Shown here piece by piece: positions 20,164 through 34,580 of a stretch of 36,334 bases of DNA. Position numbers and translations under genes: made by a program. Location: assembly GCA_026991575.1 (NCBI GenBank), contig JALXBF010000173.1:1-36334 (forward strand). Direction: 5' to 3'. Below the pieces are notes generated by a model that saw nothing but the letters and a program-made list of their open reading frames with translations, did not search any database and was not told the origin of the DNA. The DNA is from Planctomycetota bacterium. Lineage in GTDB: Bacteria; Planctomycetota; Planctomycetia; JALXBF01. Position 1 is the stretch's first letter. Each line of letters starts with the position of its first letter.

Positions 20164-20238
20164 CAGAGCGTAGCACAACCTGGCTAACGCACCTGCTTTG
20201 GGCGCAGGAAGTCGCTGGTTCGAATCCCGCCGCCCCGA
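20164..20238 (+). pseudogene. Decayed tRNA-Pro (anticodon TGG)
   Basis: The anticodon arm is intact (CCTGC-TTTGGGC-GCAGG, anticodon TGG), and the T-loop TTCGAAT and the 3' acceptor strand CGCCCCG are recognisable. The 5' acceptor strand CAGAGCG gives two A-C mismatches, the D-stem has two more and the T-stem one. These are mostly explained by G-to-A changes from a normal tRNA-Pro. No CCA is encoded. With five broken pairs it is unlikely to work. Confidence 0.7.
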
Positions 20239-20481: not shown

Positions 20482-21903
20482 ATGAATCCACGAGCTGCTC
20501 TCCGCTTTGCGAAGCGGTCACAGCGTCTCCACGTTCTCATTGTGTTGGCCGTGTGTCTTTTCGGCAGCGGCTTCGTCGAACCGGGGTTGGCCGATCCGCC
20601 AGTTAACCAGTCCACACGAGTCCCGCACGGCCAACGCGCGCCGGCCACGCCACCCGACCACCCCTATGCCAGGGCCATTCTGCTCGTAGGCCCTATCGAT
20701 CCGCAGCTACGCGAAACATTGGAGAAGTGGGAGCAGATGGCCCCCGACTCGCCGGCGGCGCGCCGTTTGAGGTCTCGCTTCAGGGCCGTCATTGATCTAA
20801 TCGAGCACCACAAATCGCCGAAAGCAGAGGACTTCCGTGGAGCGCCAGCGACTCATCCCCCGGAGACGCTCTCCAGGCTTGCGGATTCAGACGCGTCGGA
20901 CCGGCTCGAGGCTGTAGCTAACGTGGCCTGGCTGGAGGCACGAGCACGGTTGCTGCAGGGTAGTCGCGGGGACGCGATACGTTTGGTCGGCGCGGTGCTT
21001 GCTTTCAGCCGGTGGGCCGGGGACAAATTCGGCATGTTTGCGTTCCTTTCCTGTGCCACGACACACAGAAACGGAGCCGAGCTTCTCGCCCGGTGGCTTC
21101 CGGGCATGACCGAGGATGAGTTGGCCCTGCTCGAAAAGGTCCTGAGGGAACTTCCTCCGCCGCCGGACGTCGTCCGTGTCCTACACTATGAGGCTCGACA
21201 GGCGCAATGCGACATCGAAGAGCTCGAGGAACTGTTCTTGGAGTGGCTCGAGGAGGCTCGTCAGGCAGGGCTCGTGCAAGAGCAGTCGGTACAACTGACA
21301 AAGAAAGTATTCGCGTTCCGGGAAACGCCGGAATCCCGGTTGATCAGCGCGCAAAAGCAGTGGGTGAAAGATCTCGAGGCCATCCTTCGTAGTGGGCGAC
21401 CCGCAGAGTGGGCGGAACTGCTATCCCGCACCGCAATGCCCGTGATCGAAGACTGGAGGGACGAGCTGTTACCATTCTTCCCGGAGTTACGTGATCGAGG
21501 CTGGCTCCGGAACCACATGTACGTGGTCTACCCCGTCCGTTCACTGATCTACCGCATCTGCCGGCGACTGAACTGGGATCCAGGACTGGCAAAGAAGAAG
21601 AGGGGGCGGCCCTTGGCTTTGCTGGTAGCGCGGCTGGATCCGAGACTCGACGCGTGCGTAGCAACGCTCTGTATTTCTCTCATCTTTGCCCAAGCGTATC
21701 CCATCTTCCTGCGAGCTGCCGTTGAGCACCTTCGCGAGGATCAGCCGGACTCGCTTACCGAGCTACACTCACTTGGCCTAACGGCTCGCATCGTTGCCGA
21801 CAACAATGGGTTCACGATACGCACCAGCCCAGGGAATCTGGAGCTTCGCGTCATGTTGCGCAAACGGGAAACGGCGCAGATGTCTGGCGAGACGCAGTTC
21901 TAA
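20482..21903 (+). CDS. Secreted protein of unknown function, first of a tandem paralogue pair
   Basis: This is a 473-aa protein with an N-terminal signal peptide (hydrophobic residues about 17-36, cleavage near GLADPP). I do not recognise the family. The body is mostly helical with many Leu/Arg/Glu. Segments shared with the next gene include LVGPID near the mature N-terminus, a long helical middle, RELPPPPDVVRVLHYEA, ELLPFFPELRDRGWLR, a RICRRL-to-GRPLALLVARLDP block, and the ending DNNGFTIRT followed by LELRV. The Arg/Pro-containing block and the C-terminal beta-hairpin-like ending are the best conserved. Its ATG overlaps the TGA of a short upstream reading frame (ATGA), and no Shine-Dalgarno is visible. 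The paralogue follows after 12 nt. Confidence 0.85.
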   Translation: MNPRAALRFAKRSQRLHVLIVLAVCLFGSGFVEPGLADPPVNQSTRVPHGQRAPATPPDHPYARAILLVGPIDPQLRETLEKWEQMAPDSPAARRLRSRFRAVIDLIEHHKSPKAEDFRGAPATHPPETLSRLADSDASDRLEAVANVAWLEARARLLQGSRGDAIRLVGAVLAFSRWAGDKFGMFAFLSCATTHRNGAELLARWLPGMTEDELALLEKVLRELPPPPDVVRVLHYEARQAQCDIEELEELFLEWLEEARQAGLVQEQSVQLTKKVFAFRETPESRLISAQKQWVKDLEAILRSGRPAEWAELLSRTAMPVIEDWRDELLPFFPELRDRGWLRNHMYVVYPVRSLIYRICRRLNWDPGLAKKKRGRPLALLVARLDPRLDACVATLCISLIFAQAYPIFLRAAVEHLREDQPDSLTELHSLGLTARIVADNNGFTIRTSPGNLELRVMLRKRETAQMSGETQF

Positions 21904-21915
21904 GGGGCGTCCACG

Positions 21916-23304
21916 GTGAGGCGTGCTATGAACCCAGGGACCCTGCTGCGGACTGCCATGCGATTGGCCGTGCTGGTTGTTCTCTGTGCCCCTTTGCCTA
22001 CCACGCAGGCTGCAGATAGCGGGCACCACGCATGCGATGCAACCACTTCGTGTCGCAAGGTGCCGTCTGCAGCACGAGACTCCTGTGAGTGCATACGCGT
22101 GCTGGATCTCGTAGGACCCGTCGATGTCACACTGGTTCGAGAGACGGAAGGTTGGGCCGAGATTGCTCCCGACTCCGAGGGCGGTCGTCGGGTGCGCAGC
22201 CGCCTTGCTCATGTCTTGCATGCCATGAAAAGAATACCCCCGGACAAGTGCAGGACGCCCCAGGAACTGAAGGAGACTGCTCCGACTTCTCCTCGAGCGC
22301 AGCTATCCGATGGCCAGGCTAGCCGGCGGCTTCGAACGGCCGTCCGAGTAGCGTTGCTCGAGGCGCGCGCCAGATTTCAACGAGGCGACCATGCCTCCGC
22401 GATACAGCTCATAGCCTCAGCGCTGCGTCTGAGCCGTCGAGTTGCAGCACATTTCGGCGTCCTCACAATAGCGGCGTGCGCAGGTGCACACTCGGAAGGC
22501 GCCGAGCTATTGGCGCAGTTCGTTCCACATTTGACCGAGGAGCATCTTGGCCTCGTGCAGACAATGATGCGTCGTTTGCCACCGCCGCCCAATCCGTTCG
22601 ACGCGCTACGGTACGAGGCCACGGTTGGCGTGGCGCGTCCTGAAGAATTGCGAAGCCTGGTTTCCGAGTTGCTCCACGACTTGCGCAGGTATGGACTGGT
22701 CCGCGCACAGTCTGTTGAACTAACACTAGCGGTGCTGCGCTTTGACCAGGTGCCACTGGCCGAATTAGCGTCCGTCCAGCTCCGCTGGGTGCGCCGCCTC
22801 GAGGCTACCCTTCGTGACCACCCTCCGACCAAGTGGTACGAGCTGGAAAACGAGCTCGCTGCGCGGGAGCTCTCCGCGTGGAAGGAGGAATTACTGCCGT
22901 TCTTCCCTGAGCTACGCGAACCCGGATGGTTGCGGCAGCATATCGAAGAGCTGTATCCGGCCAATTGCTTGCTGAATCGCATCTGCCGACGACTGGACCG
23001 GCAACCGCAACTGGCCACGGGAAGGCTGGGCCGCCCACTCGCTCTGCTGATAGCGCAGCTGAACCCACTGCTCGCTGCAGGACCGGTCGGCATGCTGCTG
23101 ATTGGAATCGAGGGCCAGCCTCTGCTGGTACTCGGGGCAATCGAGCATCTCCGCGGCCATCCGACCGAATCGCTTACCGAGCTACGCCGCCTTGGCCTGA
23201 CGGTCCATATCGTTCCCGACAACGATGGGTTCACGATACGCACCGAACCACAGGAATTGGAGCTTCGTGTGATCTTGAAGCAACAGGCAAGGCTCCGGGA
23301 ATAG
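21916..23304 (+). CDS. Secreted protein of unknown function, second of the tandem pair
   Basis: This 462-aa paralogue of the preceding gene arose by tandem duplication. A signal peptide (about 12-33, ending TTQAADS) is followed by a Cys-containing segment (CDATTSC, SCEC) absent from its partner. The shared blocks are LVGPVD, the helical repeat-like middle, RRLPPPPNPFDALRYEA, ELLPFFPELREPGWLR, RICRRL...GRPLALLIAQLNP and the ending DNDGFTIRT...LELRVILK. Translation probably begins at GTG 21916, with AAGGGG 8 nt upstream that overlaps the previous stop. ATG 21928 is an alternative. The 12-nt spacing implies one transcript. The extra cysteines suggest a disulfide-stabilised N-terminal region outside the cytoplasm. 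Function unknown. Confidence 0.85.
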   Translation: MRRAMNPGTLLRTAMRLAVLVVLCAPLPTTQAADSGHHACDATTSCRKVPSAARDSCECIRVLDLVGPVDVTLVRETEGWAEIAPDSEGGRRVRSRLAHVLHAMKRIPPDKCRTPQELKETAPTSPRAQLSDGQASRRLRTAVRVALLEARARFQRGDHASAIQLIASALRLSRRVAAHFGVLTIAACAGAHSEGAELLAQFVPHLTEEHLGLVQTMMRRLPPPPNPFDALRYEATVGVARPEELRSLVSELLHDLRRYGLVRAQSVELTLAVLRFDQVPLAELASVQLRWVRRLEATLRDHPPTKWYELENELAARELSAWKEELLPFFPELREPGWLRQHIEELYPANCLLNRICRRLDRQPQLATGRLGRPLALLIAQLNPLLAAGPVGMLLIGIEGQPLLVLGAIEHLRGHPTESLTELRRLGLTVHIVPDNDGFTIRTEPQELELRVILKQQARLRE

Positions 23305-23590: not shown

Positions 23591-23735
23591 TCACGCTTGC
23601 GTATACGACCCCCGTCTGGCAGACGCTCTACAACGGGGCCGACGAACTGATCGCAACCATCGATCGGCTGGGGCACCAGATCAGCTACGGCTACGATGCC
23701 GCGTCGTGGGTGACGCTGATTGACCATGCATACAT
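23591..23735 (+). pseudogene. Short RHS/YD-repeat fragment
   Basis: The frame reads TTPVWQTLYNGADELIATID then RLGHQISYGYDAASWVTLID. This matches NNPVWQTLSNAAYEVIATID then PLGNQTTIAYTL in the RHS gene near 29,000, so it is a copy of the same RHS stretch with nothing of the rest of the protein on either side. A frame of 139 codons (23443-23862) spans it, but only these residues look like protein. Confidence 0.6.
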
Positions 23736-23999: not shown

Positions 24000-25730
24000 C
24001 AAATAGTCAAACGTCCCCTGATGCCCCGAGCAGGCTTCACCTCTTCCACCGCGGGTATCCGCATCCCTCGCGGCCTCCGAAGTTCTCCCGCGGCGCTCAC
24101 GCACACTGGGCAGCACAGCCGGTCTCGAGCCGACCGGCCAAACGGAATTACGGCCGATCGAAACGATCGGCCCACCAGCCCAACCGCCCACCGTGCCATC
24201 CCTACGCAGCACCACCGAGCCGCATCCTGTCCGACCAGCGCCGCGCGCGCGGCGCGCGCTCACCCTCATCTCCCGACTAACGCCGCCACAGCGTTTACCC
24301 TAACACCGCACCACACCGCGACATGCATCCATGCCTCACACCCGCCGCCCGCTTTGGCACGGCATGTGCCATATGCGTCCACCATGACAAACACCAACCC
24401 CGCCCCGCGCCCAACTGTACACCGGGCGCGGGAACAGGGCTGCCTGCGGCCGGCCAACCGTAGCCACGGCTGCACCGACCAGGTCACCAGCAGGAGTCTG
24501 CGATACGGCTACAACTCACTGTTCAAGACAACTGACGGTGGCGGACGATGGGCATGCATGACAAAGCCTACAGACAGTTGTTCGCCAACCCCGAAGTGGT
24601 CATGGAACTGCTCTCGGTCCTCTTCCGCCTCCTGTGGGACCGGCCAGTGCCGATTCAGAACCTCTATCGCGCTGCGGAAGGCCATGTGAGTCGGCGTGCG
24701 GACCGATCGCGGCTGGCAGACCTGGTGTGGGTTGCGGAGGTGGAGGGCCGGTACGTGGTGGTGGTGCTTGAATTCACCCGCACCGTGGAGCAGGACATGC
24801 TGGGTCGCATGATGGAGTACATGGCGCTGGCGTGGCGGTCGGTGAGGCGGGAACTGTTGTCGCGTGGGGTGCCGGCGGTGCCGTTGGTGGTCGGGGTGGT
24901 GATTTACAATGGAGAGGAGCGTTGGACGGCGGCGGAGTGGATTGGGGAGAGATGGCGCGGCCCCAGCATTGGGTACGTCCGGATCGACGTCTGGCACGAT
25001 CCGCTGGAGCGGTGGGCGGACTGTCCGCTGATCAGCTATGCGTTTCGGCTGCAGCGGGAGGAGGATCCGGAGCGGGTGGTCGAGTTGCTGCGGGAGTTGG
25101 CGACGCACCTGCGGGCACATGGTTTGGCTCATCTGGAGCCTTCGTTTGCGTACTTTGCGGGGTCTGTGGTGTTGGGTGGAGAGTTAACTGAGGAGGAGTT
25201 GTCGGCCATGTCGAAGATCGAAGAGGTCAACACTCGATTGGAACAGCTCAAGGAACGATGTCGACAGCAAGGGTTTGAAGAGGGCCGTCAGCGCGGATTT
25301 GAGGAGGGGTTTGAGGAGGGGCGTGAGCAAGGGCTTAAGGAGGGACACCAGCAGGGCTTTAAGGAGGGCAGTCAGCACGGCTTTGAGGAGGGGCGTCTCC
25401 AAGGGCTCGCAGAGGGTCAGCGATTAGCATTGGTGTCGGTTTTGGAAGCGCGTTTCGCGCCGTTACCCCAGTGGGCACGCGAGCGGATCGAGCAGGCAGG
25501 CAGCGAAGAACTGAACGCGTGGATTCGTCGCGCGGTAACGGCCGAGTCCCTCGAACGCGTCTTCGAGAACGACTGAAACACCTCTGACCCGGAGTTTCAG
25601 ATCTATGCTGGCGGGGTAGGCGCACGGTCCGCGCGGCGACAGCTTGGGATCCGGTGTCCACTCTATCGGTAGATGGTTCGCCGCGTGCGCAAGCGATACG
25701 GTCACGCAGCCCTTCACCACTGGGTGCTCT
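24000..25730 (+). repeat. Direct repeat unit 1 (carries Rpn-like gene A)
   Basis: This segment is repeated at 25990-27590. Shared parts are an upstream stretch containing the 18-bp palindrome GCGCCGCGCGCGCGGCGC (24238-24255), a block beginning CCCGCCGCCCGCTTTGGCAC, the lead-in CTGCGATACGGCTACAA just before the gene, the gene itself, and about 150 nt beyond it. The coding part is almost identical between copies; the flanks have diverged much more. Unit boundaries are approximate. Confidence 0.75.
24548..25576 (+). CDS. Rpn/YhgA-type PD-(D/E)XK protein, copy A, with Glu-Gly repeat tail
   Basis: This is a 342-aa protein of the Rpn (YhgA-like, formerly transposase_31) family, nucleases that promote RecA-independent recombination in E. 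coli. Family features are the opening HDKAYRQLFANPEVV, the active-site Asp in RLADLVWV (D58), the next strand VVVVLEFTRTV with Glu75, and LVVGVVIYNGEERW. In relatives the Glu is followed by F/H-Q (E-x-Q); here position 77 is Thr, so catalysis may be altered. The C-terminal third has a coiled coil (KIEEVNTRLEQLKERC). Octad repeats of the type xxxG(F/L)xEG follow at about 239-294, ending in RLQGLAEGQ, then a conserved tail. The frame starts at ATG 24548; no good Shine-Dalgarno is visible. Copy B at 26515 lacks exactly 36 residues of the repeat. Confidence 0.85.
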   Translation: MGMHDKAYRQLFANPEVVMELLSVLFRLLWDRPVPIQNLYRAAEGHVSRRADRSRLADLVWVAEVEGRYVVVVLEFTRTVEQDMLGRMMEYMALAWRSVRRELLSRGVPAVPLVVGVVIYNGEERWTAAEWIGERWRGPSIGYVRIDVWHDPLERWADCPLISYAFRLQREEDPERVVELLRELATHLRAHGLAHLEPSFAYFAGSVVLGGELTEEELSAMSKIEEVNTRLEQLKERCRQQGFEEGRQRGFEEGFEEGREQGLKEGHQQGFKEGSQHGFEEGRLQGLAEGQRLALVSVLEARFAPLPQWARERIEQAGSEELNAWIRRAVTAESLERVFEND

Positions 25731-25989: not shown

Positions 25990-27590
25990 ACGCACGGGGT
26001 AAGATACCCCCCTCCCGTCGGGTGCATCCGCATCCCCGTAGGCTCAGATCATCTCCGGCAGCACCCACGCGCGCCAAGCAAGGCATCCGGTCGAACCAAC
26101 CTGCCAAAAGGGATTGCGCCCGATGAAAACGATTCGCCCGCCAGCCCAACCGCCCAGCGTGCCATCCCTCCGCAGCACCACCGAGCCGCATCCTGTCCAA
26201 CCAGCGCCGCGCGCGCGGCGCGCGCTCACCCTCATTTCCCAACTAACGTCATCAGAGGGACCCCCATAAGGCATTGTCGCACAACGACCTGTCTCCACGC
26301 CTCACACCCGCCGCCCGCTTTGGCACGGCATGTGCCATAAACACTCACCATCACAAACACCAACCCCGCCCCACGCCCAACTGTGCACCGGGCGCGGGGA
26401 CAGGGCCGCCTGCGGCCGGCCAACCGTAGCCACCGCTGCACGCACCAGGTCGCCAGCAGGAACCTGCGATACGGCTACAAGTCACTGTCACAAGACAACC
26501 GACGGTGGCAGACGATGGGCGTGCATGACAAAGCGTACAGACAGTTGTTCGCCAACCCCGAAGTGGTCATGGAACTGCTGTCGGTCCTCTTCCGCCTCCT
26601 GTGGGACCGGCCGATGCAGATTCAGAACTTGTATCGCGCTGCGGAAGGCCATGTGAGTCGGCGTGCGGACCGATCGCGTCTGGCGGACCTGGTGTGGGTT
26701 GCGGAGGTGGAGGGCCGGTACGTGGTGGTGGTGTTTGAGTTCACCCGCACGGTGGAGCAGGACATGCTGGGCCGCATGATGGAGTACATGGCGCTGGCGT
26801 GGCGGTCGGTGAGGCGGGAACTGTTGTCGCGTGGGGTGCCGGCGGTGCCGTTAGTGGTCGGGGTGGTGATTTACAATGGAGAGGAGCGTTGGACGGCGGC
26901 GGAGTGGATTGGGGAAAGATGGCGGGGCCCCAGCATTGGGTACGTCCGCATCGACGTCTGGCACGATCCGCTGGAGCGGTGGGCGGACAGTCCGCTGATC
27001 AGCTATGCGTTTCGGCTGCAGCGGGAGGAGGATCCGGAGCGGGTGGTCGAGTTGCTGCGGGAGTTGGCGGCGCACTTGCGGGCACATGGTTTGGATCATC
27101 TGGAGCCTTCGTTTGCGTACTTTGCGGGGTCTGTGGTGTTGGGCGGGGAGTTAACCGAGGAGGAGTTATCGGCCATGTCGAAGATCGAAGAGGTCAACAC
27201 TCGGTTGGAACAGCTCAAGGAACGATGTCGACAGCAAGGGTTTGAGGAGGGGCGTCTGCAAGGGCTCGAAGAGGGCCAGCGATTAGCATTGATGTCGGTC
27301 TTGGAAGCGCGTTTTGCGCCGCTACCCCAGTGGGCACGCGAGCGGATCGAGCAAGCGGACAGCGAAGAACTGAACGCGTGGATTCGTCGCGCGGTAACGG
27401 CTGAGTCCCTCGAACGCGTCTTCGAGAACGACTGAAACACTGACCCACAGCTCCAGCTCCCGGCTGGCCGGTCGGATACACGGTGCCCTCGTCGGCGATG
27501 TTTGGCCTCTTGCAGCCACTCAATCAGCAGCTCGTTCGCAGTGTGTGCAAGCCATACGCGGAAGGACACCTTCGCCACATCTCTGGAGCA
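25990..27590 (+). repeat. Direct repeat unit 2 (carries Rpn-like gene B)
   Basis: Second copy of the unit at 24000-25730. The 18-bp palindrome GCGCCGCGCGCGCGGCGC is at 26204-26221. Start codons of the two genes are 1967 nt apart and stop codons 1859 nt apart; the 108-nt difference is exactly the missing repeat block. About 150 nt after each stop still align. On the opposite strand they encode similar short peptides (LAHTANELLIEW here, LAHAANHLPIEW in unit 1), a trace of a lost gene. Confidence 0.75.
26515..27435 (+). CDS. Rpn/YhgA-type PD-(D/E)XK protein, copy B, short repeat tail
   Basis: This 306-aa near-identical paralogue of copy A belongs to the same Rpn/YhgA-like family. An open frame extends upstream to 26383, but the homology to copy A and the family N-terminus (HDKAYRQLFANPE) begin at ATG 26515, so I use that. 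Active-site residues are as in copy A: Asp58 in LADLVW and Glu75 in VVVFEFTRTV, again with Thr where the family has Gln. Only two Glu-Gly units remain (QQGFEEGRLQGLEEGQ), against about six and a half in copy A. Otherwise only scattered substitutions separate the two proteins, for example C-to-S in ERWADSPLIS and T-to-A in RELAAHL. Preservation of both frames amid strongly decayed surroundings suggests recent duplication, gene conversion or selection. Confidence 0.85.
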   Translation: MGVHDKAYRQLFANPEVVMELLSVLFRLLWDRPMQIQNLYRAAEGHVSRRADRSRLADLVWVAEVEGRYVVVVFEFTRTVEQDMLGRMMEYMALAWRSVRRELLSRGVPAVPLVVGVVIYNGEERWTAAEWIGERWRGPSIGYVRIDVWHDPLERWADSPLISYAFRLQREEDPERVVELLRELAAHLRAHGLDHLEPSFAYFAGSVVLGGELTEEELSAMSKIEEVNTRLEQLKERCRQQGFEEGRLQGLEEGQRLALMSVLEARFAPLPQWARERIEQADSEELNAWIRRAVTAESLERVFEND

Positions 27591-27633: not shown

Positions 27634-28560
27634 GATAGGACTAGCAGGCACCGGTTGCCCGGGGCCCGCCCCCACCGAACTGGACGCACGGTTCTCCCGC
27701 ACCCGGCTCTACAGTCGGCGGCCCTACCACAAAGGAGACTTCCCTGAGGCGGTTAGCCACGCGGGACGGCCAGCCGTGTTCGACTTAAAAACGACCGAGT
27801 CACCTTCTGCGCGGGTCGCCTCCAGGCCCAACGACGCACACCGGGCTGGGACCTCACCATCTCACACGCCGTCACCCGAGGCCGCCGGGAGACAACCTCC
27901 AGCTTCACGGCCATCGCCAGAGCCTCACTCCAGCCGCGCCACCTTCTTCAGCCATCCCGAGCACTCACGCTGGTACCCGTCTGCCGCTGCACCTTCCGCT
28001 CGCCTCCACCTTCCTGGGGCCCTTCCCTCCACGGGCATGAGCCGGCTCTCTCGCTTGCTTGCGACCCTCTGACTCCTGATGGGCCGCTCCTCCTGTCGGT
28101 TCGGTGCTCTGGCTCGCTTCGGTCCGCCAAGCACCACGCGGATGGCCGGGGGACATCTTACAGGGCCCACCCTATACCCTGATGTACCGCAGGCTCCTCG
28201 CGTCCCCTGCCGATCAGGCCTCCGTCGTTCACGTCATCGGACCTTCCGAGCATTCCGCCCCCAACCACCCCACGTCGCCATCCGGATCGGTCTGTCTTCC
28301 CCGGATGCTGACCTGGCCTTCCGACAAGGCATCTTGGGCTTCGCCACTACCCGGCAGGTTCGACACGACGTCAGGCCGAATCGGGTTCCTCTCGTCCGGA
28401 CTACTCGTTCGCCTCCGGTTGCTCTCCACGTCCTCGTCAGGGGCCGTGTAACAGCAGCACCCCCGCCAAGGGAATGGGCGGCCCAGGCAGGCTACTCCAA
28501 TCGGCGGGCGGGTGGCCTTATGTCCCCCGCCCGCAAGGTTGATGGATAGCGCGGGCGCAC
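27634..28560 (-). mobile_element. Group II intron without visible reverse transcriptase, probably class C-like
   Basis: On the minus strand the element begins GTGCGCCCG, matching the group II 5' consensus GUGYG. A strong stem near the start (28504-28534) follows CTATCCATCAAC. Domain-I-like blocks come next, including GGAGGCGAACGAG, GAGAGGAACCCG and AGTGGCGAAGCCC. Domain V is at 27677-27709: GAGCCGGG, tetraloop-like GAGAA, return strand ending AGTTC, with one G-to-A change breaking a pair. A GCAA-capped domain-VI-like stem (27642-27670) and a final CCTAT follow. The total is about 930 nt, too short for a maturase, and I see no reverse-transcriptase motif. Just upstream of its 5' end is a perfect 16-bp hairpin (28581-28617), the kind of site class C introns use. 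Confidence 0.65.
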
Positions 28561-28580
28561 CTCCAAAAGATTTTCTCCTT

Positions 28581-28617
28581 CCGGGCCGCGGGCGGGTCGA
28601 TCCCGCCCGCGGCCCGG
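28581..28617. repeat. Perfect 16-bp hairpin at the 5' exon side of the group II intron
   Basis: The arms at 28581-28596 and 28602-28617 are fully complementary, around a TCGAT loop. Going away from it on the minus strand there are 20 nt including TCTTTT, then the intron start GTGCG. Class C group II introns insert just after terminator-like stems, so this is the probable target hairpin. Confidence 0.6.
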
Positions 28618-28695
28618 GTGGTCCGATTCCCTTGGGCAGGCGCTGTACACAGAGAAACTGTGCTGTCGTCTCGGAGGGAGCGCGGTGCCACCTCG

Positions 28696-28905
28696 CCGAC
28701 GCCGCGGACTGCCGTCCGCGGCGTCGGGGCCTTTTCAAATGGGAAACAGAAAAAAACAAACCTGGCACCGCCCGTGCTACCCATCAACACAGCGGCAGGG
28801 GGGGCATGAAGCCTCCCTGCCGCCCATTGAAGCACGCTCCCGGGTCGAGTGGGCCGTCCCCTGGGCGGCGTTCCTGCTCTTCCGCCCGTCGCAAGCGCCC
28901 AGTTA
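28696..28905 (+). mobile_element. Terminator-like hairpin followed by a second group II intron 5' fragment
   Basis: A perfect 14-bp stem (CCGACGCCGCGGAC, 28696-28709, with 28714-28727) followed by CCTTTTC resembles an intrinsic terminator. About 38 nt later comes GCACCGCCCGTGCTACCC, then CATCAAC and the stem GCGGCAGGG/CCCTGCCGC (28792-28823), parallel to the intron at 28560. Similarity continues for about 70 nt more and stops where RHS sequence begins at about 28,910. Confidence 0.5.
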
Positions 28906-28910
28906 CCAGC

Positions 28911-29952
28911 GCCGACACGCTGCGCTATGAGTACGACGTCCTGCACCGGCCGGTGAAGGCGATCGATCCCCATGAGGACACCGACCCGACAAACAACCCC
29001 GTCTGGCAGACGCTCTCCAACGCAGCCTACGAAGTCATCGCAACCATCGATCCGCTGGGCAACCAGACCACGATCGCCTACACCCTCACCGGCATGGTCG
29101 CCGCGGTCACTGACCCCTTGGGCCGCACGACGCGGTACCGCTACAACGCCCGCGACTGGCGGACGGCCATCATCTTGCCCGATGGCGACAGCGACCCGAA
29201 CAACAACCCGGAGATCACTTTTGGCTATGATGAGGAAGGCAATCTCATCTCGCTGACCGATGCCGACGGGAACACGACCCAGTGGCGGTTGGATGCCGTG
29301 GATCGGGTCATCGAAGAGATCAACGCGCTGGGACTGAGCCGCTTCTTCGAGCACGATGCCGCCGGACAGCTGACGGCCGTCGTCGATCGCAACGGACGGC
29401 GGCGTGAGTTCGATTACGACCTCGACGGCCGCCGCACCGCAGCGAAGTGGCTCGACGGCCAGGGCCAGATCGTCTTCCAGATCAACTACACCTGGGATGC
29501 CGCCAACCAGTTGATCGGCGTCTCCGACCCGAACCAGACCTACACGCTTGCCTACGACGACGCCGGCCGCATCATCAGTCTGGACAACACCGGTAGCCCC
29601 TCGATCTACCCGGTCATCCAGCTCACCAACACCTACGACGATGCCGCCAACCGCATCCGCCTCACCGACAACTACGGCACCGAGTTGCGGTACGAGTATG
29701 ACAGCCTGTCGCGCATGACGCAGGCGGACTTGATGGAATGGCAACTACGTGCCGCGTTGGCACCACACGCTTTCCGACCCGTACAGGTGGACAACCTTTC
29801 CGAGGAAGGAAAAGATCATCTGGACGACACTCTACATGCGCTACTTTACGCACAAGAGAGTACTCCAGCAGATCATGCGCATCCCGTGGGCGTATGATGG
29901 CGCCGCTGCGGGTGCGGTGTACGGGGGTGTCTCCGGCTACTACGGTTACTAG
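28911..29952 (+). pseudogene. RHS/YD-repeat protein remnant with frameshifted C-terminal tail
   Basis: From 28911 to about 29,733 the frame encodes a run of YD/RHS repeats: LRYEYDVLHRP, FGYDEEGNLISLTDADGNTT, FFEHDAAGQLTAVVDRNG, FDYDLDGRRTAAKWL, TYDDAANRIRLTDNYG and YEYDSLSRMTQAD. RHS proteins form a shell that encloses a C-terminal toxin. There is no N-terminus and no RHS-associated core motif (DPxGL). At 29,734 the protein-like sequence moves to another frame: WNGNYVPRWHHTLSDPYRW, then FPRKEKIIWTTLYMRYFTHK, ending AYDGAAAGAVYGGVSGYYGY and a TAG at 29950-29952. So the gene is truncated at the front, has lost its core region and carries a frameshift. The tail may be a toxin or spacer domain; I do not recognise it. 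Confidence 0.7.
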
Positions 29953-29980
29953 GGTTCCAACCGCCCTGGAGGTTTGCACC

Positions 29981-30820
29981 GTGCCGCTCTTTCTCGGCTG
30001 TTGGCGAACTCCTCTGAAACACGTAGAACGTGTCGCACTGGCCGCGTGGCGCCGAAGTCTGGCACCCGAGGCACGTGCTCTGCTCCGCCGGCAACTAGCG
30101 GTTCGCACCGCGATCTCCCGCGACCTTCGCGGAAAGTGCGTCTCTTTCGGCGTCGGACACACAGGCGTGCCAAAATTCCCGAACACGTCGGAAGCGCACG
30201 CGGCCCGGGTTGTCATGAAGGCCAGCGTTGCCGGCCCAATCCGGTTACGGTGCGACATCTATTGTTGTGCCGGATACCTTTTCGAGCTGATTTTCAGCCG
30301 GCCTACGGCCGACATCCAGAGAATAGACCTTTCTAGTATTCATGTGGACCTCTACGCCAATCTGCTCGAAGCGGAAGGTGAGCCCACGGCACTATCGGTG
30401 CGCGATATGAATCGCCTAGCTGACCATTTTGCGATCGGCCCTATCGATGACGCAAGGACTCCCGCTCCTGCACGCCGGCTAGACGCGTTTCGGCGGGCCT
30501 GGGTTGACGTCCTCCCGCACGATTACCTTCAGCTGTGCTCGTGGTGTGACTCTATTACAAGCGGCCAGTGGCAGTTCTTGGGAACTACAGCCTACCTGGT
30601 TGCTTTTACCGAAGACATCAACCTTCTCGTCCTAGCTTCTGGTCCTAACGGGCTCATGCTAGCGGTGCGTGTGCCGGCGACTCGGGACACTGTCGTGGAA
30701 CTATACGAACATGACACGCCCGTTCCAATCGGTCAGTGGGATGGGTTTGTGGACGCTTTCCGGTATGTCTGCTCAGGGCTGTCTGGTCCGAACAGCGCCC
30801 CGGCATTTCGTCGGGGCTGA
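29981..30820 (+). CDS. Putative immunity protein downstream of the RHS tail (SUKH-like C-terminus)
   Basis: This is a 279-aa soluble protein. It starts at GTG 29981 with a strong Shine-Dalgarno, GGAGG (29968-29972), 8 nt upstream. An open frame to 29738 exists, but it only shadows the RHS tail. The gene begins 28 nt after the RHS stop, the usual place for the immunity gene of a polymorphic toxin. Residues about 1-120 form one domain (SLAPEARALLRRQLAV to AGYLFELIFSRP). Residues about 165-270 have the pattern of SMI1/KNR4 (SUKH) immunity domains: LPHDYLQLCSWCDS early, then NLLVLASGPNGLMLAVRVPA and a closing IGQWDGFVDAFRYV. The SUKH assignment rests on pattern, not on an alignment. Unlike the RHS gene it is intact. 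Confidence 0.7.
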   Translation: MPLFLGCWRTPLKHVERVALAAWRRSLAPEARALLRRQLAVRTAISRDLRGKCVSFGVGHTGVPKFPNTSEAHAARVVMKASVAGPIRLRCDIYCCAGYLFELIFSRPTADIQRIDLSSIHVDLYANLLEAEGEPTALSVRDMNRLADHFAIGPIDDARTPAPARRLDAFRRAWVDVLPHDYLQLCSWCDSITSGQWQFLGTTAYLVAFTEDINLLVLASGPNGLMLAVRVPATRDTVVELYEHDTPVPIGQWDGFVDAFRYVCSGLSGPNSAPAFRRG

Positions 30821-30954: not shown

Positions 30955-31990
30955 GCGCATTTGCTAGTGCCGTCGTCGGCGCTGGCACCAAACGCCGAAT
31001 GCGCATCTGCTCCTCCCGAAATGAGAGATCCAAGCTCCAGTGCAGCTGGTTCTCGGTCGACCAGCGCTTACGAAGTGCCTTCGCATGGGGTCGGCATCCG
31101 GCTCGTTGCTGGATACGTGGTAGCCCACGTGCTCTATCCCCCGCCCAGAACACTGGCAAATCGTCTCGGTTGTCGCCAGTGCGATCGTTCTGATGCTCTG
31201 CCAGCCAGGCAGCGCGCGGATCTCGGCCGGTGCCGGCGTCGCCGTCGCGCAACGAGTCTCCCGACGGCCATGCCCACGATCCTGCTGGCAGCACCTCGGA
31301 AGTCTGGACAGCTTCCCTCTTTCGCCCATGGCCATAAGATACTCCCGCACCCTCAGATAAAGCGTCGGCTGGTTTGCCTTCAAGGTCAGCACGTACTTCC
31401 ACACGTTCGCCACGATCGGTTCGACAATGTGCGCGTGGCAGCCAGCCGCGTCGCTCGTCACACTGGCGCCATTCAGTTCGAGCGAATCGATTAGATGCGG
31501 CATCACCACCGTCTCGTTGGTATACGGCTCGGCACCGACCTGGCGCAGCGCCACCGCCTCCTCCGTGGCCCATGCTGTAACCACCTGCAGCACCGCTCCC
31601 CCAGCCCGCCCACGCTGCGCCCGTCGCGACGCCATCCCGTCTATCGCCCCCAACGACTGAGCGACCTCCCACGGCGGGCACGCAAGTCCAACAGCTACTC
31701 CGTCCACGCCCCGATCAACTCCTCAGGGTCCACGCCCTGAAACACGTGCGCAAACGTGTCATCCGACGGAATCCCATGCGGCAAATCCAGCGACCTGCGA
31801 AAAAAACGCCTCTTCTCATGCAGCAACATGTCACGATTGCCTGCAAACTCCTCGCCCTGCATAGGATGGCGCATGACGCCAGAACCACGACCGTATCCAG
31901 CCGATGACGAACCCTCGCGCGCTGACGCCCCGGGTCCCGCATCCTCGACAGATACTGCACCAACGGATCCTCGCTGCCCGGGCCATGCTA
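30955..31990 (-). pseudogene. ISAs1-family transposase, broken by several frameshifts
   Basis: Successive pieces in different minus-strand frames reconstruct an ISAs1-type transposase. The first is VQYLSRMRDPGRQRARVRHR then LDTVVVLASCAILC. Next is EEFAGNRDMLLHEKRRFFRR then SLDLPHGIPSDDTFAHVFQG, followed by VVTAWATEEAVALRQVGAEP, LIDSLELNGASVTSDAAGCH and YVLTLKANQPTLYLRVREYL. The last is RWSTENQLHWSLDLSFREEQ. At least three frame changes separate them, so it is not functional. Inverted ends could not be identified. The element lies between the immunity-like gene and the membrane-protein gene at 32124. Confidence 0.75.
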
Positions 31991-32123
31991 CTCCTCCATG
32001 ATCCCTAGTCCGAAGCCGGTGAGCGCGGACAGTTTGCCACCATCCCTCTCTGATGCAACGGCCGCCCTTCGTCGTGGGACCCACGGTTCCAGGTGCGTCA
32101 GCCGTGACGGAAAGGGGTGCTAC

Positions 32124-33650: not shown

Positions 33651-34580
33651 TCGGGGGGCTGTGGTTAGCCAAACAGACCCCGAACCCAGGGAGGCATCGC
33701 ATGGACGCACGCTATCGCCGTCCGCAACCAATTGTAGCCTTGATGAAGGCGAGCGTTGATGAAGGTAATTGTGGAGTCTCTGGGCGTTGGGCCGCGTTCC
33801 AGCCCGGGTCGGCGTGGTCGGCCAGCCACATCGCTGAGGCGGATCTGCAACTCGGTTTGGTATCGGATCCGTGCGGGCTGCCCGTGGAAAGCCATCCCGG
33901 CCACCGACGAGCTGGCCAACGGGAGCACCGCACACGAGTGGTTCAAGCGGTGGACGGAGGCTGGGGTGTTCGCACCGTTGCACCTGGTGCTGGTGGCATT
34001 GTACGTGGAGGACGGTCGGGCGCGGCTGCGTCGACTTGGAATCGACTGTACTCTGGTGCCGGCGCCGTTGGGATGCGAGGGCAGCGGGCCGAATCCGGCA
34101 GACCGTGGGAAGGAGGGAATAAAGGTGTCGGTAGTGGTGGACGAGGCGGGTGTGCCGCTGGCGGTGCATGTGGCTGGGCGAACATCCCGGAGTTCAAGCT
34201 GTTAGGCGAGACGTTGGCGGAGCTGGCTGGTCCGGTGTTGGAGGGGTTGGCCAAGGGCAAGATCCAACCGGAGCTCGTCGCAGACAAGGGTTACGACTAC
34301 AGTCAGGCCCGTGAGCAAGCAGCTGAGTACGGCTTCATGCCGCGGTTCGCCAAGCGGCGTGCCTCCTACAGGCGAGCGCCGAAGAAGGTGCATCGGGTCC
34401 GAGCCAACACAGAACGAGTGGCAGCCTGGCTGAAGTCGTTCCGGGGCGTACGCCTATGCTGGGCCCGTAAGCGGTGCTGCTATCTAGCCGCTGTCGCTCT
34501 CCCCACAGGGCACTATACCCTACTCATGACCGGAGCTTTCCTCGACGTGGCGCTGTCCGAGCTAGGCGGTACACCCTGGC
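33651..34580 (+). mobile_element. IS5-family element, inactive copy
   Basis: The left end starts near TCGGGG at 33651 (paired with CCCCGA at about 33679) and is shared with the fragment at 19795. The right end is uncertain. Sequence near 34,560-34,580 resembles an imperfect inverted copy of the left end (TAGC-N4-ACAG on the reverse strand versus TAGC-N3-ACAG), which would place it there. The expected transposase stop is missing, and the element abuts the C-terminal codons of the minus-strand membrane gene. Confidence 0.6.
33701..34580 (+). pseudogene. IS5-type DDE transposase with a 16-nt duplication and a 1-nt deletion
   Basis: The start ATG 33701 has AGGGAGG 6 nt upstream. The reconstructed protein reads MDARYRRPQPIVALMKVIVE, then GRRGRPATSLRRICNSVWYR, then GIDCTLVPAP (first catalytic Asp), VADKGYD (second Asp), and RVRANTERVAAWLKSFRG (Glu), a full DDE set. 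The frame is broken twice. TTGATGAAGG repeats with a 16-nt period at 33740-33765, and removing one 16-nt unit restores the reading. Near 34,177 one base is missing in the Gly codon of HVAG-ANIPEF. The fragment at 19849 lacks the 16-nt duplication, which confirms it as secondary. Confidence 0.75.

Follow-up and report, generated by a model that had tools for sequence, protein, structure and literature searches.

In a planctomycete contig we identified the remains of an RHS polymorphic-toxin gene whose immunity gene has been left intact, a reading to which we give a probability of about 0.85. The window, by which we mean the whole stretch of DNA analyzed, is 36,334 nt of contig and belongs to a draft genome of 4.96 Mb in 191 contigs that is 97.8% complete. 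Judged by its homologs, the 279-aa product of the intact gene (P0001) is best read as an orphan immunity protein of two domains (a polyimmunity protein) lying beside a dead toxin. A sequence-only reading of the same DNA had described RHS repeats, then a tail in another frame and, 28 nt further on, a gene, and this description proved exact (Table 1). It had also held that the toxin carrier was ruined and the presumed antidote kept, and the deletion between core and tip, the intactness of P0001 and the adjacency of the two families in other genomes agree with this.

Table 1. Coordinates of the RHS remnant, the immunity-like gene and the adjoining transposase in the window
Feature	Position	Strand	Evidence
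RHS/YD-repeat core remnant	28890..29736	+	Profile matches and DNA identity to paralogs
Deletion junction	29732..29738	+	Comparison with RHS paralogs
RHS frame, out-of-phase read-through to the stop at 29895-29897	29737..29897	+	
RHS tip (toxin) end: last 72 codons and stop, without FSHWxPxR	29734..29952	+	
Ribosome-binding site GGAGG, 8 nt upstream of GTG	29968..29972	+	Sequence
P0001, 279-aa immunity-like gene, intact	29981..30820	+	Homology to immunity-like family
P0001 N-terminal immunity domain, about residues 1-132	29981..30376	+	Homology, AlphaFold2
P0001 C-terminal SUKH-like domain, about residues 139-267, LPHDYL motif	30395..30781	+	
ISAs1-type transposase, broken (DDE_Tnp_1_assoc and DDE_Tnp_1)	30964..32084	-	

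A Deletion Joins the RHS Core to the End of a Tip

Profile searches confirmed the RHS repeats seen in the earlier reading, the frame beginning at about 28890 matching PF05593 (E = 5.3e-40) and TIGR01643 (E = 8.8e-36). All or part of the segment 29033-29736 was 93-96% identical in DNA to stretches on about 10 other contigs of the same genome, and the C-termini or tips differed between the copies; a core common to copies with different tips is a mark of RHS toxins. Past the point equivalent to 29736, the core goes on (MTQAELVVSGTPKATAQFAYDAA...) in every paralog reaching that far, the four intact paralogs having 607-640 further codons of core. In the window, homology to all RHS paralogs ends at 29736 and the end of a tip begins out of frame. 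The frame of this tail, WNGNYVPRWHHTLSDPYRW... at 29734-29949 with a TAG stop at 29950-29952, is not the RHS frame, and the two sides of the join have at most about 5 bp in common. As judged from the paralogs, part of the RHS gene was deleted, from midway through the core into the tip, so that the core now meets the tip's last 72 codons in the wrong frame; the loss would amount to roughly 1.6-1.8 kb if the missing part was of the usual length. The complete core running in frame into an intact tip that defines a working RHS toxin is missing, and the gene is a pseudogene of the family; an immunity gene does follow directly downstream, after the gap of 28 nt.

As RHS genes are multi-copy and many contigs of the assembly end inside RHS copies, the same arrangement could be produced if the assembler had misjoined a core and a tip end that come from separate RHS loci. 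We consider such an artefact very unlikely: with a divergence of 4-7% from each of the other copies, the core in the window is not a collapsed repeat, the common sequence at the join is too short for an assembler overlap, and the tip is found on no other contig.

Ten paralog tips compared with Pfam returned nothing but DUF4347 and a sub-cutoff match to KinB, and most of the paralogous RHS genes have some ORF next, yet no clear immunity family was recognized there. A smaller second RHS scrap lies at 23605-23718 of the window.

The Tail Is Related to the Tips of Intact RHS Proteins

The sequence-only reading had allowed that the tail might prove to be random sequence. This did not happen: homologs end intact RHS proteins elsewhere, and by this homology the tail represents a conserved domain. 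Among 398 genomes of the class, one relative was found, 43% identical (E = 3.6e-5), in a Gemmatales MAG (SKYB77; here G113), where it lies downstream of an RHS core and is itself decayed. Scanning a genome collection with the tail sequences of the window and G113, we found intact RHS proteins with the same terminal domain in Aquabacterium commune DSM 11901 (an ORF of 1,719 codons, locus L079) and Xanthomonas euvesicatoria ATCC 11633 (1,558 codons, locus L080). Further tips came from 399 genomes of the Aquabacterium order, one in genome G1368 and two, one of them divergent, in genome G1398.

The aligned tip domain has the pattern FSHWxPxR...NGNYV....H...DP....QQ..RxPN..G. Its C-terminal part, NGNYV...H...DP...QQ..RxP...G, is present in the window, with 15 columns invariant among six sequences. 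The tip of the window starts only at WNGNYV, the N-terminal part including FSHWxPxR having been deleted, and the toxin is therefore most probably dead in any reading frame. The domain gave no match in Pfam or NCBIfam, and a phylum-wide search with the two-row tail profile returned the window as its sole match. No second copy of the tip was found elsewhere in the genome of the window, and no intact cognate toxin was found in this 97.8% complete draft, as expected for an orphan immunity gene. AlphaFold2 modeling of the tip from three sequences gave no usable fold (pLDDT 32), and no HNH/EndoVII profile of Pfam matched the tip. Our guess that the tip might be an HNH-like nuclease comes from its SHWxP...NGN...H pattern and from HNH-fold toxins being frequent partners of SUKH proteins.

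The state of the tip also bears on whether the remnant could be kept as a silent cassette, a recombination donor of tips for other RHS genes. Tip swapping needs many RHS copies with similar core DNA and different tips, and the genome has these, with cores 93-96% identical. In the window, however, the tip no longer has its N-terminal part (with FSHWxP) and does not share a reading frame with the core, leaving no working toxin to donate, and we regard this explanation as highly improbable.

P0001 Belongs with the Family That Follows the Tip

The gene for P0001 was described in the sequence-only reading as intact and with a ribosome-binding site, in accordance with its 279 codons, its GTG start 28 nt past the stop of the tail and the GGAGG upstream. 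When the bases of this region were shuffled 2,000 times, the longest open frame had 361 codons, against 372 in the actual sequence. The codon usage is not host-typical and lies between those of host genes and noncoding DNA; as it is intermediate, homology is the stronger proof that this is a gene. The GC content drops from 63% in the RHS core to 58-60% in the tail and the P0001 gene, as for an imported cassette of tip and immunity gene.

Leaving aside the decayed tip of G113, all five tips outside the window are followed by a gene of a single immunity-like family. In Aquabacterium commune, this gene overlaps the RHS stop (ATGA) and is homologous to residues 10-128 of P0001, and in Xanthomonas euvesicatoria a gene 20 nt after the tip matches the same residues (BLASTP E = 2e-4 in a single comparison). 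Intact RHS proteins ending in the same tail and followed by a homologous gene, proposed beforehand as a check, thus exist in both species. The genes after the tips of G1368 and G1398 are family members with E values of 3.8e-50 and 7.6e-34, and the gene after the divergent tip of G1398 gave a weaker match (E = 2.2e-4). The gene after the decayed tip of G113 had no match to the family. The protein after the tip of G1398 has two domains and, at 281 aa, is co-linear with P0001 throughout (BLASTP E = 2e-9 over residues 27-251). With a profile of seven members built without P0001, P0001 ranked first in its own genome (E = 1.5e-4; the next protein had 0.38), and the profile search of the 279-aa protein that had been suggested did connect it to an immunity-like family. 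By these homologies, P0001 belongs to the immunity-like family following the tip.

Further members of the family were found in Xanthomonadales, and as some of them adjoin other RHS tips, the pairing of toxin and immunity gene is not exclusive. The homologs that we examined follow the tip or lie mostly in RHS neighborhoods, one of them in an array of RHS tips on an IncC plasmid, and the possibility that they would occur mostly away from RHS loci, which would have spoken against the sequence-only reading, did not come true. Another explanation is that P0001 serves some intracellular unit, as its antitoxin or regulator, and lies next to the RHS gene by accident. The function of P0001 is predicted from sequence, which leaves room for this, but we find it scarcely credible, since at five other loci this tip is followed by the same family, which also appears in the plasmid array.

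The plasmid array is an observation in its own right. On pN069_1 (NZ_AP019818.1 81293-89634, locus L135), a conjugative IncC plasmid, four RHS core fragments alternate with small hypothetical genes, the immunity-family relative included, near blaCTX-M-2; the region resembles a mobile array made up of immunity genes and orphan RHS tips. In Aquabacterium commune, the immunity gene is directly followed by one more RHS C-terminal fragment, whose tip is a different one (L079, 6741-7385).

Direct searches with P0001 found nothing real in genome contigs, viral contigs, plasmids, PDB, Pfam, NCBIfam, PHROGs or 59-398 relatives, and no other copy in the 97.8% complete genome of the window. Matches at E of about 0.003 in one genus consisted of antisense frames and a serine/threonine kinase and were discarded. 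The N-terminal domain has no Pfam family, and the immunity family is without an entry in Pfam or NCBIfam. AlphaFold2 predicted for this domain two helices followed by a beta sheet, with pLDDT mostly 66-90; Foldseek with the whole P0001 model, in which the C-terminal half is of low confidence, gave no match at E <= 0.001.

The Second Domain Is a Possible SUKH Relative

The C-terminal half of P0001 contains the motif LPHDYL and is modeled, at low confidence, as helices, four strands and a helix. The SUKH-like pattern noticed here in the sequence-only reading held up in part. It found no backing in Pfam, where neither P0001 nor the 281-aa homolog matched a SUKH profile up to E = 10, nor in P0001 taken alone, whose score against a SUKH alignment of sequences from relatives was no higher than shuffled versions reached. 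It gained support from a two-sequence profile of P0001 and its homolog, which scored 26.7 against SUKH with the full domain aligned, the maximum in 150 column shuffles being 15.2. With reserve, we take the C-terminal domain to be a diverged relative of SUKH. In G1368, a separate ORF after the immunity gene of the tip passes the SUKH-1 cut-off (PF09346, 5.8e-6), and the immunity and SUKH parts are thus neighbors in this genome and fused in others. If the SUKH-like domain covered a second toxin, P0001 may be a polyimmunity protein.

The row of genes in G1368 (L132) is on the reverse strand and consists of the tip, the immunity gene, the SUKH-1 ORF and, possibly frameshifted, a second immunity paralog. 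It reads as a small polyimmunity locus.

Shield or Relict

Under our preferred reading, a cassette of tip and immunity gene would have been imported, its intact tip poisoning neighboring cells and the 279-aa protein binding and blocking the tip. The toxin would then have been lost by deletion while the immunity protein stayed, and the host, unable to fire the toxin, would yet survive its delivery by related bacteria. In this scheme toxicity, neutralization, protection, retention by selection and the assignment of the toxin as a nuclease are inferred. We see roughly even odds for the broader proposal that a previously uncatalogued RHS toxin family and its immunity family span Planctomycetota and Proteobacteria and that the fusion of immunity and SUKH domains, once its carrier had been destroyed, persisted as a shield against two toxins.

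The locus could instead be a pure relict, the toxin having been destroyed recently and the immunity gene, of no benefit to the host, being merely not yet decayed. The parts are the same as in our preferred reading and the sole difference is whether the gene is still useful. The decayed surroundings (the broken transposase, the RHS scrap at 23605-23718 and, in G113, the decayed tip) and the weak codon statistics of P0001 are what a relict would look like. Set against this, the gene is whole from its ribosome-binding site and start through all 279 codons although the toxin beside it is clearly dead, and a distant genome (G1398) has the same two-domain architecture; we hold the relict to be a serious possibility but a somewhat doubtful one. 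The locus offers a clear planctomycete example in which the toxin is gone and its immunity gene survives, and a toxin-immunity family pair absent from Pfam and NCBIfam is now defined by motifs and several intact examples. With environmental bacteria carrying intact pairs, it is testable across phyla whether orphan immunity protects against the toxins of relatives.

Mobile and Repeated DNA around the Locus

Directly downstream of P0001 is a broken ISAs1-type transposase, related to copies on four further contigs that carry RHS genes, and a piece of an IS4/5-family transposase (DUF4096, 2.6e-15) lies at 33756-34205. Upstream of the RHS remnant, 28055-28907 is a dispersed, apparently noncoding repeat, found at about 40 places in the genome with copies about 72-91% identical and often just ahead of RHS copies. 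Rfam gave no match for this repeat, the sole match in the window being a tRNA at 20164-20238. Near copies of the dispersed repeat there are two very similar Transposase_31 (YhgA-like) genes, at 24548-25576 and 26383-27435. Two similar-looking genes stand in tandem at 20482-21903 and 21916-23304 (473 and 462 aa, without Pfam match), and on another contig (C21) an RHS copy is followed by a gene resembling this pair.

Comparison with Known Systems

H-repeat (ISAs1-type) elements accompany the Rhs loci of Escherichia coli, and here, too, an ISAs1-type transposase adjoins the RHS remnant and has relatives on four other RHS contigs. Unlike the H-repeats, the planctomycete copies are decayed, and their association with RHS is one of co-occurrence.

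The locus resembles rhs-CT/rhsI and the orphan rhs of Salmonella (PMC3967940, PMC3150448) in its YD-repeat core common to several copies, its variable tip, the small immunity gene directly downstream and the presence of orphan fragments. It differs from them in that the tip is cut and out of frame, so that just the immunity gene can work, and in that the tip and immunity families are outside Pfam and NCBIfam. In Serratia, orphan Rhs immunity proteins, such as those of Rhs NADase immunity, are discussed as possible protection against foreign effectors (PMC10539506), and P0001 likewise comes from a genome that lacks a working cognate toxin. The present case differs in its planctomycete host, in toxin and immunity families that are apparently different, and in that protection is a prediction. 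Polyimmunity proteins combine SUKH with at least eight unrelated immunity domains, and the partners of SUKH include many HNH-fold toxins (Zhang et al. 2012, PMC3482391). P0001 is built similarly, with an immunity domain and a SUKH-like domain in one protein, but its N-terminal domain has no Pfam family and its SUKH-like part is too diverged for Pfam. The locus is an addition to the known RHS toxin-immunity systems and not a new kind of system.
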